Below the pieces are notes generated by a model. The model was not told where the DNA came from and made no database searches. It worked only from the letters and a program-made list of their open reading frames with translations. The position numbers and the translations under genes were made by a program. A DNA stretch of 33,272 bases from Bacilli bacterium (lineage in GTDB: Bacteria > Bacillota_I > Bacilli_A > RFN20 > CAG-826), in the NCBI GenBank assembly GCA_017534425.1, contig JAFXWB010000036.1, positions 1 through 33,272 on the forward strand, written 5' to 3'. This document shows, one piece after another, positions 142 to 33,272 of this stretch; the stretch's first letter is position 1, and the number at the start of each line of letters is the position of its first letter.

Positions 142-649
142 AAAACAATATTGGCGTTGGCATTACAAAGACTATATCAGACTAGCAGAAGAACAAGGTC
201 ACAACATAAAAGAAGATTACTGGAAATATCCAAAGGATCTAAAAGAAGCACATGACAAGTTAATGGATGCAAAAACAAAGATAGAAGCTGCTAAGAAAAA
301 AGAAGAGTTTAAAACACTTTTAAAAAGAATTAAAAAGTATCTTAAATACAATGCAGAAATCGATGGCTACTCAATATTCTTCAGTGCTAAATATGAAGAA
401 TGGAAAGAACAAGCCGACACGCTACATCAATGCATCCTAGCAAGTGCATATTACAAAAATACAAACTGCATCCTAGCATTCATAAGAAAAGGCAATAACC
501 CTATCGCAACAGTAGAAATTAAGAAGAACAAAGAGATAGGGCAATTTTATGCAAATGAATGGGATAGGGCAAATTGTCAACCTAGTGAAGAGGTTAAAAA
601 GGTATTTTACAAATGGTTTGAAAATGTGAAAGTAGGTGCTAGATTATGA
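2..649 (+). CDS. PcfJ-like protein, C-terminal part (gene wraps round from 32587)
   Basis: This is the 3' part of a gene that begins at 32587. When joined across the circular ends it encodes 397 aa. An internal ATG at 92 should not be taken as the start, because the frame is open to base 2 and beyond through the overlap. The C-terminal half has the PcfJ-like signature: Leu-His-Gln-Cys (LHQC), then an Ala-Phe-Ile-Arg-Lys segment, then a Val-Glu-Ile strand and an acidic/aromatic tail. PcfJ is named from the conjugative plasmid pCF10 and is common in Firmicutes phages, but its function is not established. It sits directly behind a PcfK-like gene, the usual pairing. It ends in TGA overlapping the next start by 4 nt. 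Confidence 0.85.
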   Translation: MGKFGLNYNECRQYAKIKDFDIDYIKYSGGMPYDVFIKRCKGKDEETKQYWRWHYKDYIRLAEEQGHNIKEDYWKYPKDLKEAHDKLMDAKTKIEAAKKKEEFKTLLKRIKKYLKYNAEIDGYSIFFSAKYEEWKEQADTLHQCILASAYYKNTNCILAFIRKGNNPIATVEIKKNKEIGQFYANEWDRANCQPSEEVKKVFYKWFENVKVGARL

Positions 650-1074
650 CAGATTTATTTACACCTGAAGAACAGGTAGAACAAGAAAATAGATATTACA
701 GAAGAAAAAAGGAAGCAATAGAGTATTTTAAGAGTGAGGGTTTTATATGCAACAAGATAACTGAACGATGCTATGGATCTATTAATAAAACATACTTCCT
801 AAATGACAGCCGACAAACTGCGACAATATGGATACAGTTTAATGATTCAGAACATTACCACGACACACCAGATGGTGTAAAGCCTACAGGTGATGGAATA
901 ATAACAGCGTGGAACATAAGACTACACACATGGGAATGGGAGCATTATTTCACAGGTCAATTCGCAGAAGATAGACACTGCGACATGATAAAAGTGTTAA
1001 AAGAGCTTGAACCAGTAGCTAAAGATTTTGAAAAGTACAAAGCATGGTTAAAAGAGTGGAACAAGCGCAAATAG
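646..1074 (+). CDS. Hypothetical early protein, 142 aa
   Basis: I do not recognise this family. The start ATG overlaps the TGA of the PcfJ-like gene (ATGA), which implies translational coupling. The protein is rich in charged and aromatic residues, with several Trp and His residues in the middle (around the segment ending HTWEWEHYF) and a Lys-rich helical C-terminus. There is no membrane segment or metal-binding cysteine cluster. It is the last gene before the hairpin element at 1076-1223. Confidence 0.75.
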   Translation: MTDLFTPEEQVEQENRYYRRKKEAIEYFKSEGFICNKITERCYGSINKTYFLNDSRQTATIWIQFNDSEHYHDTPDGVKPTGDGIITAWNIRLHTWEWEHYFTGQFAEDRHCDMIKVLKELEPVAKDFEKYKAWLKEWNKRK

Positions 1075-1075
1075 C

Positions 1076-1223
1076 TACAACCTAGTGGCGGCTAGTTGTA
1101 AATATGCTGGCGAGCCAAAAATACGCAGAAAATTAAATTTATTAAAAATCGGATAAATATACGAACAAAAAAAGATTTCATCGAAAAAATACATATAAAA
1201 GTTAAAAGCCGCCACTTTTAACT
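1076..1223 (+). promoter_or_regulatory. Two-hairpin element with mutually complementary loops
   Basis: Hairpin 1 (1076-1100) has a 9-bp stem with one bulged C and loop TGGCGG (1086-1091). Hairpin 2 (1200-1223) has a perfect 9-bp stem and loop CCGCCA (1209-1214). The loops are exact reverse complements. Including the closing pairs, AGTGGCGGCT (1084-1093) is an inverted repeat of AGCCGCCACT (1207-1216). A third small stem, GCT-GGCG-AGC (1106-1115), also displays TGGCG. About 100 nt of A-rich sequence separates the two hairpins. Neither is followed by a T-run, so they do not look like terminators. The element occupies the leader of the wHTH gene at 1246, whose SD (GGAGG, 1236-1240) lies just downstream. 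A kissing-loop RNA or a DNA-level site is inferred, not shown. Confidence 0.6.
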
Positions 1224-1245
1224 GAATGAAAAACTGGAGGAAAAT

Positions 1246-1641
1246 ATGAGTCATAGTAATTTAAAAGAAATTAAGCAAAACAAGGCAACAAAGGATAATT
1301 ACAATCATCCAATAATCAATTTATTATTTTCTGATTCACCACTAACAAAGGAAGAAATAGGGGAAAAGTTAAACATAACAAGTGATAGATCAATTAGAGA
1401 TGTTATAGCGGTATGTAGTATGCACTACCCTATACTTGCGACATCTAATCAAAAGGGATACAGAAGAGCAAAAGATATAAACGATTTAACAATCGAAGAG
1501 TTAGAAAAAGAAATGGAAGAAGTAAAACATCAGCTTGAAGAACACAAATCAAGAATCGCATGTTTAAAAAAGAAAATGAAGCCACTTGTTGCATGGTTAA
1601 AAGTAGCTGAAAAGAAAGTAGGAACAAACAATGGACAATAA
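1246..1641 (+). CDS. Winged-helix-like DNA-binding protein with coiled-coil tail, 131 aa
   Basis: Residues about 20-75 resemble a helix-turn-helix of the winged type: PLTKEEIGEKLNI, then SIRDVIAVC, then a short wing ending in KGYRRAKD. Residues about 78-115 form a Glu/Lys-rich heptad region, probably a dimerising coiled coil. The start has a strong GGAGG SD at 1236-1240. It is preceded by the only sizeable gap in the early operon, which holds the paired-hairpin element, so it may be separately regulated or autoregulated. It overlaps the next gene by 11 nt. DNA binding is inferred from the fold pattern; the target is unknown. Confidence 0.7.
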   Translation: MSHSNLKEIKQNKATKDNYNHPIINLLFSDSPLTKEEIGEKLNITSDRSIRDVIAVCSMHYPILATSNQKGYRRAKDINDLTIEELEKEMEEVKHQLEEHKSRIACLKKKMKPLVAWLKVAEKKVGTNNGQ

Positions 1642-2179
1642 AGAGAGAGTCATAGAATTATTACAAAAAGTTAATAGACCAGGAATTGAAAAGTTAATAA
1701 ACTGGTTAGAAAAATCAACATTCTTTACTGATCCTGCATCAACAAAGTATCACGATGCAGAAGAGGGCGGACTTTTAAATCATAGCTTACTTGTCTATGA
1801 CAATTATGTAGCTTTAACAGGTAAAGAAGATGAAACCACAATAATCACGTGCTTACTACATGATGTTTGTAAGATAGGCACTTATAAAAAGGTTATGAAA
1901 AACGTTAAATCAGAAAACGGACAATGGATACAAGTAGAATCTTACGACTACCAAGACGATGGAATGCCATACGGACATGGTGAAAAATCAGTGTTAATGA
2001 TTAGCCACTTTATAAATTTAACAAAAGAAGAAATGCTGATGATCCGCTGGCACATGGGAGCATACGAAAGTAAAGAGGTATGGAACAATCTAGGAAAAGC
2101 ACAGGAAATGTATCCAAGTGTTTTATATATACATTTTGCCGATATGATGGCGAGCAAAGGCATACATTATAAAAGGTGA
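1631..2179 (+). CDS. HD-domain phosphohydrolase, 182 aa
   Basis: A single HD-type metal-dependent phosphohydrolase domain fills the protein. The visible ligands, in order, are H51 (LLNHS), H77-D78 (LLHDVCK), H116 (GHGEKS), H141 (IRWHMG) and D171 (HFADMMAS), which is the complete HD set. Proteins of this size are common in phages of Firmicutes and are thought to act on nucleotides or nucleic acid ends, but the substrate cannot be read from sequence. The start overlaps the end of the wHTH gene, and the stop is TGA. The position in the early operon fits a nucleotide-metabolism or anti-defence role (inference). Confidence 0.88.
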   Translation: MDNKERVIELLQKVNRPGIEKLINWLEKSTFFTDPASTKYHDAEEGGLLNHSLLVYDNYVALTGKEDETTIITCLLHDVCKIGTYKKVMKNVKSENGQWIQVESYDYQDDGMPYGHGEKSVLMISHFINLTKEEMLMIRWHMGAYESKEVWNNLGKAQEMYPSVLYIHFADMMASKGIHYKR

Positions 2180-2975: not shown

Positions 2976-3423
2976 ATTAGATATGTTTAACAAAGAATAT
3001 TCATTAGAATTATTAGGCAACAAAATAAGATACAAGAAAGAATATGTTGGAAATGACATATACAGATTATACATTAAGAAAAATGAAATTGAATTACTTG
3101 AAAAATATTTAACTGAATTACAAGCGATTAAAAATGCCAATCCTACTGAAGCGTTAGAAGACTTAAAAGAATTACATAAACTTGCCTATGATATTGATGT
3201 GTGGAAAATAGAAGATATAGTTCAATCATCACATATCAAACAAGCATTACTTAAAGCACAAGAGCAAGGCAAGGCTTTAAATGAGTTAATAAAAAATCAT
3301 ATTGAGTTTGTTGTAGAAAAAGATAGATGCTATTTCAAGATAAAAAATTCCAAAGGTAATGAAAAATCTTTTACAAGTTATACAATGCTTGATTTTTGGA
3401 AAGAGGTATTAAAAAATGAGTAA
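2968..3423 (+). CDS. Hypothetical early protein, 151 aa
   Basis: I do not recognise the family. The protein is mainly alpha-helical and charged, with Leu/Glu/Lys-rich helices in the first half and a short beta-type segment at the end (CYFKIKNSKGNEKSFTSYT). It has no TM segment or metal motif. The start overlaps the previous gene by 8 nt, and the SD is AGAGGTAGAAG at 2957-2967. It overlaps the next gene by 8 nt. Confidence 0.7.
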   Translation: MSKLDMFNKEYSLELLGNKIRYKKEYVGNDIYRLYIKKNEIELLEKYLTELQAIKNANPTEALEDLKELHKLAYDIDVWKIEDIVQSSHIKQALLKAQEQGKALNELIKNHIEFVVEKDRCYFKIKNSKGNEKSFTSYTMLDFWKEVLKNE

Positions 3424-4015: not shown

Positions 4016-4210
4016 ATGAAAAGTAAATTCACAGGTTTATGGTTTATTATAGGATCATCAATTTTACTAGGATTTGGAATAGCATTATTTTTTAAAAGCG
4101 AACACGACTTTATGATATTTGGAACAGCCTGCAGCTTCATGAATGTTGTTATAGTTTTATTCGTAATAGGTGCGATTATGAAAGACAAGGAAAATGATGA
4201 TGAAAAATAG
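4016..4210 (+). CDS. Small membrane protein with two TM helices, 64 aa
   Basis: The ATG at 4016 is preferred over an upstream TTG (3977) because GAAAGGAAG lies just upstream and the extra 13 residues would overlap the previous gene. Two hydrophobic helices are visible, about residues 7-25 and 31-53, joined by a short charged loop (FKSEHDF), with an acidic tail. The product is a membrane protein of unknown role; superinfection exclusion or holin-like activity is possible but unsupported. Confidence 0.62.
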   Translation: MKSKFTGLWFIIGSSILLGFGIALFFKSEHDFMIFGTACSFMNVVIVLFVIGAIMKDKENDDEK

Positions 4211-4757
4211 CAATAATACTACACTTATAGAAAGAGTAAAAGTATATATATATAAGAAATTCAGTATTACAGAAGAAGAATTACATAATAGTAGTAGAAG
4301 ATATATAAAAGAGTTATTACAAAGTATTAAGAGTAGTAACTTACAAGTAAAGTATTTAAGAATTAAAAGAGAACGTTTAAAAGAAGATATAAAGGATTTA
4401 GAAGCATCATTTGTGGTTGGTGATTCATACGATAGAGAGTTCACAGGACCAAATACAGGCTTACAAGCTAACACCACTGAAATAAAGTACATGAAGCGTG
4501 CAACAATGAAAGAAGAGTTGCAACAGCTTGTACTTAAAACACTAGAAATCGAAAAATCCCTAGAAGATAACAACAACCTTATATCAGACTTTATTAGTTT
4601 AATTTCTAAAGAAGAATATCAAATAATTTTAAAAATGACTTACATTGACTGCATGTCAAACATTGAAATATCGAAAGCTTTATTTTACGCAGTTAACACA
4701 ATAGACAATGCAAGATGGCGAGGAATAAGAGAATTAACAAAAATAATAAAAAATTAA
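4194..4757 (+). CDS. ArpU/RinA-type late transcription regulator
   Basis: The C-terminal 50 residues form a sigma-70 region-4-like helix-turn-helix: EEYQIILKMTYIDCMSNIEI, then SKALFYAVNTIDNARWRGIREL. The N-terminal two thirds are helical and charged. Size, fold and place (last early gene, directly before the terminase operon) match the ArpU/RinA family of phage late-gene activators. Three in-frame ATGs occur at 4194-4200, of which 4197 or 4200 has the better SD spacing. Its likely target is the dyad and promoter region at 4778-4813. The family call is strong; the activator role is inferred. Confidence 0.8.
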   Translation: MMMKNSNNTTLIERVKVYIYKKFSITEEELHNSSRRYIKELLQSIKSSNLQVKYLRIKRERLKEDIKDLEASFVVGDSYDREFTGPNTGLQANTTEIKYMKRATMKEELQQLVLKTLEIEKSLEDNNNLISDFISLISKEEYQIILKMTYIDCMSNIEISKALFYAVNTIDNARWRGIRELTKIIKN

Positions 4758-32586: not shown

Positions 32587-33272
32587 ATGCATATACAGTA
32601 TGAAAGAATTTCAACATTAAAAATCAAATACGGTCATTTAATAGTTGAAACTGAAGCACTATGGAAAGGCAAAAGAAGAAAGGTACAAGAAATAAACCTA
32701 GATAAAGGTGTTAGATATCAAGGGGTTTATTACTCAGGTTTATGTGGCTATGGTGTAGTTTTTGAAAACGAAAGAATAATAACTCGTGGTGGTTGGTACT
32801 ATGGCAACGAAAAGCTAGGCATAGAAAAGTATGGCAAATACTACGATGAAATAGATCATCCAGCAATAGCCGATGCAAGAAAAGTGACACCAAAGGAATA
32901 TGAAATAATTTACAGCTTATATCCAGACTTTAAATACACAGTTAAAAAGATGCAGTACGAATGCAACATAACAAACATACTAAGTATTTTAAAAAGATGG
33001 ATAGCACATCCTAAAGAGGTTGAAATGCTATACGCTGTAGGCTACGGACAATTTATTTTTAACAAATCCGTTTATACACTGCCAAAAGAAAGCAAGGATA
33101 GATTAATCAAGTTTTTAATAAAAATGCAAAAAATCGGCAAATTTGGGTTAAATTATAACGAATGTAGACAATACGCAAAAATAAAAGACTTTGATATTGA
33201 TTACATAAAATATAGTGGCGGCATGCCTTACGATGTTTTTATTAAAAGATGCAAGGGCAAGGATGAAGAAAC
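32587..33272 (+). CDS. PcfJ-like protein, N-terminal part (continues at base 2)
   Basis: It starts 3 nt after the PcfK-like stop, with SD GAGGA. The first ~90 residues are a beta-rich basic domain with Gly/Tyr pairs (GVYYSGLCGYGVVFENERI). Next comes a helical section (VTPKEYEIIYSLYPDFKYTV, then MLYAVGYGQFIFNKSVYTLP). The window ends inside the gene; joined to base 2 onward it gives a 397-aa PcfJ-like protein. The break is an artefact of linearising the circle. The last 141 nt duplicate the start of the window. Confidence 0.85.
   Translation, partial: MHIQYERISTLKIKYGHLIVETEALWKGKRRKVQEINLDKGVRYQGVYYSGLCGYGVVFENERIITRGGWYYGNEKLGIEKYGKYYDEIDHPAIADARKVTPKEYEIIYSLYPDFKYTVKKMQYECNITNILSILKRWIAHPKEVEMLYAVGYGQFIFNKSVYTLPKESKDRLIKFLIKMQKIGKFGLNYNECRQYAKIKDFDIDYIKYSGGMPYDVFIKRCKGKDEE
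33132..33272. repeat. Terminal overlap, right copy (identical to 1-141)
   Basis: Exact duplicate of bases 1-141. It should be trimmed to give the 33,131-bp circular genome. Confidence 0.95.

Follow-up and report, generated by a model that had tools for sequence, protein, structure and literature searches.

In the early operon of a phage contig, the gap upstream of a winged-helix gene contains two hairpins (HP1 and HP2) with loops, TGGCGG and CCGCCA, that are exact reverse complements. Our leading interpretation, to which we give slightly less than even confidence, is that this gap encodes a cis-acting RNA whose two loops make contact over a long range and thereby set how the downstream gene is translated. 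The element may best be read as working like the leaders of plasmid rep genes, yet it fits no family tested.

The window, meaning the whole stretch of 33,272 nt that was analysed, begins and ends with the same 141 bases (1-141 = 33132-33272) and is a complete circular contig, the 33,131-bp form of a phage or plasmid-prophage. It is contig C62 in an AT-rich host assembly of 1.34 Mb, and carries genes for an integrase, repressor-type HTH proteins, RecT, a PcfJ-like protein and terminase, the PcfJ-like gene spanning the junction of the circle. A second terminase gene is present on another contig of the same assembly (L385/L386, G000:C69:25500-62998), which is probably a second prophage. Counting open reading frames of at least 33 aa on the plus strand, 1075-1245 is the sole plus-strand gap of at least 40 nt in the early operon, which extends from 26.1 kb round to 5.7 kb. 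An earlier note on this DNA had called it the only real gap in that operon, and this holds. The features of the region are as follows.

646..1074, plus strand: upstream early gene, 142 aa (from the ORF list), stop codon UAG at 1072-1074
1075..1245, plus strand: gap holding the whole element, 171 nt
1076..1100, plus strand: HP1, stem TACAAC(C)TAG / CTAGTTGTA, loop TGGCGG at 1086-1091 (from the sequence)
1084-1093 / 1207-1216, plus strand: 10-bp inverted repeat AGTGGCGGCT ... AGCCGCCACT, which may form the loop-loop pairing or a different long-range helix
1105..1116, plus strand: mini-hairpin with conserved apex CTGGCGAG (sequence, RNAfold)
1200..1223, plus strand: HP2, stem AGTTAAAAG / CTTTTAACT, loop CCGCCA at 1209-1214 (sequence, folding)
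1236..1240, plus strand: Shine-Dalgarno sequence GGAGG of the downstream gene (from the sequence), invariant in the relatives
1246..1641, plus strand: downstream winged-helix gene with a long C-terminal helix, 131 aa (Pfam, PHROG, AlphaFold)
1631-2179, plus strand: HD-domain gene, following the winged-helix gene

The HP1 stem has 9-10 bp with one bulged C and an energy of -8.7 kcal/mol when folded alone; in RNAfold the U and the final G of its loop are paired as well, leaving a GGCG tetraloop, and the mini-hairpin likewise receives a GGCG tetraloop. HP2 has a perfect, AT-rich stem of 9 bp (z = -4.7 folded alone). The arms of the two hairpins differ completely and their stems are unrelated; together with the closing bases, the loops form the 10-bp inverted repeat. 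The calculated duplex energy is -9.9 kcal/mol over the 6 loop base pairs and -19.2 kcal/mol over 10 bp. Two hairpins with perfectly complementary loops, an inverted repeat of 10 bp including closing pairs, and a third small hairpin showing TGGCG had all been proposed earlier, and each was recovered, the last at 1105-1116. The hairpins had also been described as lacking a terminator T-run, in agreement with our finding of 0 terminator-like sites (a GC-rich hairpin followed by a T-run) in 800-1500. Searches of the gap for a promoter and for direct repeats or iterons found none.

The complementarity of the loops is far beyond what base composition would give by chance. Shuffling the gap 20,000 times by dinucleotides never produced two hairpins whose 6-nt loops were complementary throughout. 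Among 36 hairpin pairs in the window as a whole, this is the only one with complementary loops of this kind, and none of 60 whole-window shuffles had such a pair. The sequence GTGGCGGC occurs four times in the window against 0.05 expected. Two of these occurrences are the element itself, and the other two represent a single site in the PcfJ-like gene, which the 141-base terminal repeat of the circular contig makes appear twice. This copy, at 84-91, was taken as a coincidence, as a search of both relative loci outside the element revealed no extra copy. The fold of the region as a whole is only mildly unusual (leader z = -1.56).

The same genes together with the gap were found in two relatives only, the IMG/VR contigs L001 (= L125) and L002 (= L126), in which the protein encoded by 646-1074 is 96-100% identical. 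A loss of complementarity was looked for in these homologous gaps; both keep both loops and nearly all stem pairs. Over the two comparisons the hairpins show 1 change in 96 positions, while four-fold sites differ by 11-13%. HP1 is invariant in both relatives, and the one change in HP2 is the loss of the closing pair in L001/L125. The mini-hairpin is the most changed part, yet its pairing is kept through two two-sided changes: a G-C pair has been replaced by A-U, and the outermost position, which is unpaired in the window, forms U-A in one relative and A-U in the other. The covariation score was matched by 60 of 500 shuffles, reflecting the weak statistics of three close sequences. All six loop-loop pairs are invariant among the three, and covariation therefore says nothing on the loop-loop pairing. 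The earlier note had proposed to look for compensatory changes in both stems and both loops; the two-sided changes seen are those of the mini-hairpin.

Wider searches added no homologous locus. Outside the window's own genome, neither phage records nor 196 host-family genomes nor GTDB contigs yielded a relative of the winged-helix protein, and the gap DNA gave no real match in phage and plasmid records. When IMG/VR was searched for the pattern GTGGCGGC...GCCGCCAC, the loci inspected among the matches listed were largely GC-rich, which made this pattern uninformative; the 10-bp pattern with a spacing of 90-120 nt, a range that misses the relative L002 by 1 nt, gave none. Relatives of the HD gene (L127-L129) were discarded as homologous loci, having no winged-helix gene and no TGGCGG/CCGCCA motif upstream. 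Matches to PHROG 2113 in the host family were likewise set aside: the best candidate inspected (L132) was unrelated and most others resemble generic wHTH matches.

The position of the element points to translation. A single nucleotide separates HP1 from the UAG stop codon of gene 646-1074, and 12 nt lie between HP2 and the Shine-Dalgarno sequence of the winged-helix gene, giving the order stop, HP1, spacer, HP2, 12 nt, Shine-Dalgarno. We consider translation as the target because HP1 lies under the footprint of a terminating ribosome and HP2 adjoins the initiation site. With no promoter or terminator in the gap, transcriptional attenuation is less likely here, unlike in the Clostridia prophage L331 described below. 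The 142-aa upstream protein had no Pfam or PHROGs match. The downstream gene 1246-1641 is likely the regulated gene and, as no internal promoter was found, is probably read from a longer transcript. Its product has a weak Pfam HTH_11 match (21.5 bits against a cut-off of 25) and matches PHROG 2113. An AlphaFold model of low confidence (pLDDT 67) has the arrangement H-H-H-H-H-E-E-long H, and a fold search with this model gave no match at E <= 0.001.

In the proposed mechanism the loops UGGCGG and CCGCCA would pair across about 100 nt as a kissing complex or pseudoknot. This contact would fix the leader structure just 5' of the Shine-Dalgarno sequence and in this way set translation of the winged-helix gene, perhaps that of the HD gene as well. 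A ribosome terminating at 1072-1074 would cover the 5' arm of HP1. The mini-hairpin, with its UGGCG, and a competing nested fold at 1073-1112 can take the same bases, so that the contact might work as a switch that responds to translation of the upstream gene. We infer that the loops pair in vivo, that pairing affects translation, with activation or repression as its sign, and that the terminating ribosome takes part.

In the full leader, HP1 is not the fold of lowest free energy, and HP1, the mini-hairpin and HP2 together are never the nested minimum. In all three sequences a competing nested fold at about 1073-1112 is better by 0.5-4.5 kcal/mol before any kissing energy is added; it consists of GCUAC/GUGGC plus GCUAGU(U)/(A)GCUGGC, of which the window has a variant. 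The energy calculated for the loop pairing exceeds this deficit and would in principle suffice to reverse the preference. In L002, the changes that preserve the mini-hairpin fit the competing fold equally well, which makes it possible that the leader switches between two states.

In order to find parallels, we scanned phages with related terminases for hairpin pairs with complementary loops. Among 1405 hairpin pairs with loops of exactly 6 nt, the main survey yielded 4 with complementary loops against 0 for reversed-loop controls. These 4 fall into 3 families, one of which is the window's own. Overall, the scan brought up the window family, L171 with two near-identical contigs, and L331. For intergenic sequence there were 28 raw matches (at 10 places) against 0 controls. 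Without the window, which had prompted the search, 2 families stand against about 0.3 expected (an estimate from 1405/4096), and this excess of exact loops outside the window's own family is only suggestive. Inverted repeats can also outnumber reversed controls for reasons other than kissing. A later phage sample of 0.64 Mb had 0 exact pairs in 237 and no convincing case; the complementary-loop architecture is rare and its parallels rest on few cases. The one plausible match in this sample, on the other contig of the host assembly that carries a terminase gene (L385), was an ordinary intrinsic terminator and was rejected. Matches in L325, L229, L307, L372 and L403 had weak stems, were very distant, lay within reading frames or were duplicated hairpins, and were not counted as parallels.

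L171 is an unrelated phage with the same layout in unrelated sequence. The stop codon of a small gene is followed after about 4 nt (a distance taken from the coordinates of the near-identical L198) by HP1, which has the loop CCGTGC. HP2, with loop GCACGG, comes 77 nt later and is separated by 12 nt from AAGGAG, after which the start codon stands. In phage of the L171 type a second kissing-type pair, again with loops CCGTGC/GCACGG but on different stems, was observed behind a VRR-NUC-like gene in L197 (2154-2272) and in L198 (near 3292-3386), where a stem change keeps pairing, as G-U, only on the strand opposite the genes. L331, a Clostridia prophage, has two promoter-proximal leaders of one design (349-490 and 4094-4244): a sigma-70-like promoter, HP1, a short linker, HP2 with a T-rich tail, a Shine-Dalgarno sequence and a gene. 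The loops are TTAGGGG/CCCCTAA in one leader and TGACGG/CCGTCA in the other. Judged by sequence, these leaders look like an attenuator with a kissing contact; the window, in contrast, has neither promoters in front nor T-rich tails. The linkers of L331 repeat the 3' arm of HP1, and the gene after its second leader is HNH-like. L171 and L331 are analogies to the window element, not homologues. In L204 (3893-3961) a hairpin with loop ATAGGGTT stands 15 nt before a strong intrinsic terminator with loop GACCCTAA; it had no match in Rfam and is possibly a small noncoding RNA.

Among known systems the closest working analogy is the rep-leader pseudoknot of I-complex plasmids. In the leaders of ColIb-P9 repZ and of IncB and IncL/M repA (work of Asano/Mizobuchi and Praszkier/Pittard), an upstream hairpin with a UUGGCG loop reportedly pairs over a long range with a loop beside the rep ribosome-binding site, and upstream translation is said to control this pseudoknot. 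The window element resembles these leaders in its complementary loops and in an HP2 placed 12 nt before GGAGG, and the position of HP1 behind an upstream stop codon recalls their upstream translation. It differs in that it lies in a phage and not a plasmid, and in that the downstream gene, with its weak HTH_11 match, is no recognised replication initiator. The UGGCG of HP1 is preceded by G and forms no YUNR motif, while that of the mini-hairpin is preceded by C, and CUGG fits YUNR. The rUUGGCG loop motif and the I-complex pseudoknot are named in titles within the reference list of PMC10724649, and the resemblance of UGGCGG to this motif is a lead only. No sigma-70-like promoter, the type searched, was found on the minus strand of 800-1500 for an antisense RNA over HP1, and the gap had no sequence match in a plasmid collection. 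Rfam 15 at gathering thresholds gave no match in the window, the best sub-threshold scores being 11-15 bits against the 38-78 required. With no antisense promoter, no recognised initiator and no Rfam match, we do not claim membership of the rep leaders.

Two phage systems bear comparison as well. Translation of the lambda early gene cIII is set by two competing mRNA folds, and in the window, likewise, two folds compete for 1073-1116; cIII does not involve a kissing loop, and there is no relation in sequence or gene. The put RNA of HK022 acts by loop-sequence-dependent modification of RNA polymerase and is located near or just downstream of early promoters. The window element, unlike put, lies in mid-operon beside a ribosome-binding site, with no promoter before HP1 and no terminator in the gap. 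As with the window element, put belongs to a phage early transcript with hairpins (PMC9378689).

An unlikely alternative is that these are two ordinary mRNA hairpins, HP1 protecting or delimiting the 3' end of the upstream message and HP2 keeping nucleases off the 5' end of the winged-helix message. The bases they share would then make no loop contact, or only the alternative 10-bp helix. Locations immediately behind a stop codon and just ahead of a Shine-Dalgarno sequence fit roles in processing or stability, as does the longer transcript that is probable for the downstream gene in view of the missing internal promoter. Such hairpins leave unexplained both the exact complementarity of 6 nt, extended to 10 bp, and the recurrence of the layout in L171 with other complementary loops.

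It is also doubtful that the element acts at the DNA level, as palindromes bound by the winged-helix protein or by some other regulator of the phage, or as a hairpin-extruding replication site. HP2 is a perfect 9-bp inverted repeat with a 6-bp spacer, HP1 a near-perfect one, the next gene encodes a winged-helix protein, and the changes in stems and mini-hairpin suit DNA as well as RNA. Against this, the palindrome arms are wholly different and so do not form a pair of sites for a single dimer; what the palindromes share is the spacer, whose match an ordinary operator would not need; and neither iterons or direct repeats nor a promoter for repressor action were found in the gap.

Least probable is chance, in the form of AT-rich hairpins with accidentally matching GC-rich loops or of a small inverted-duplication remnant kept because the relatives are close: there are just three closely related sequences, and the later phage sample offered no further convincing case, but the shuffles, the slower change of the hairpins than of four-fold sites and the L171 parallel all stand against it, and an inverted duplication should have copied the unrelated stems too.

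The option of a kissing-loop riboregulator, one of several in the earlier note, is thus the best supported, by complementarity beyond chance, by two relatives and by the layout in L171, while the loop pairs themselves never vary. More speculative, and in our view improbable, is a recurrent and undescribed class of phage leaders, in which two hairpins with interchangeable but always mutually complementary 6-7-nt loops would link the ribosome-binding site of the next gene with a stop codon or promoter upstream, each phage having its own orthogonal loop pair (TGGCGG/CCGCCA; CCGTGC/GCACGG; TGACGG/CCGTCA; TTAGGGG/CCCCTAA). If the loops pair, the early operon of this phage would contain a small, protein-free switch with a pairing code that could be rewritten by swapping both loops. 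Complementary loops between a stop codon and a Shine-Dalgarno sequence would then provide a search rule where sequence conservation fails, and there would be an indication that temperate phages of gut bacteria also use the kissing-pseudoknot control of plasmid rep genes.
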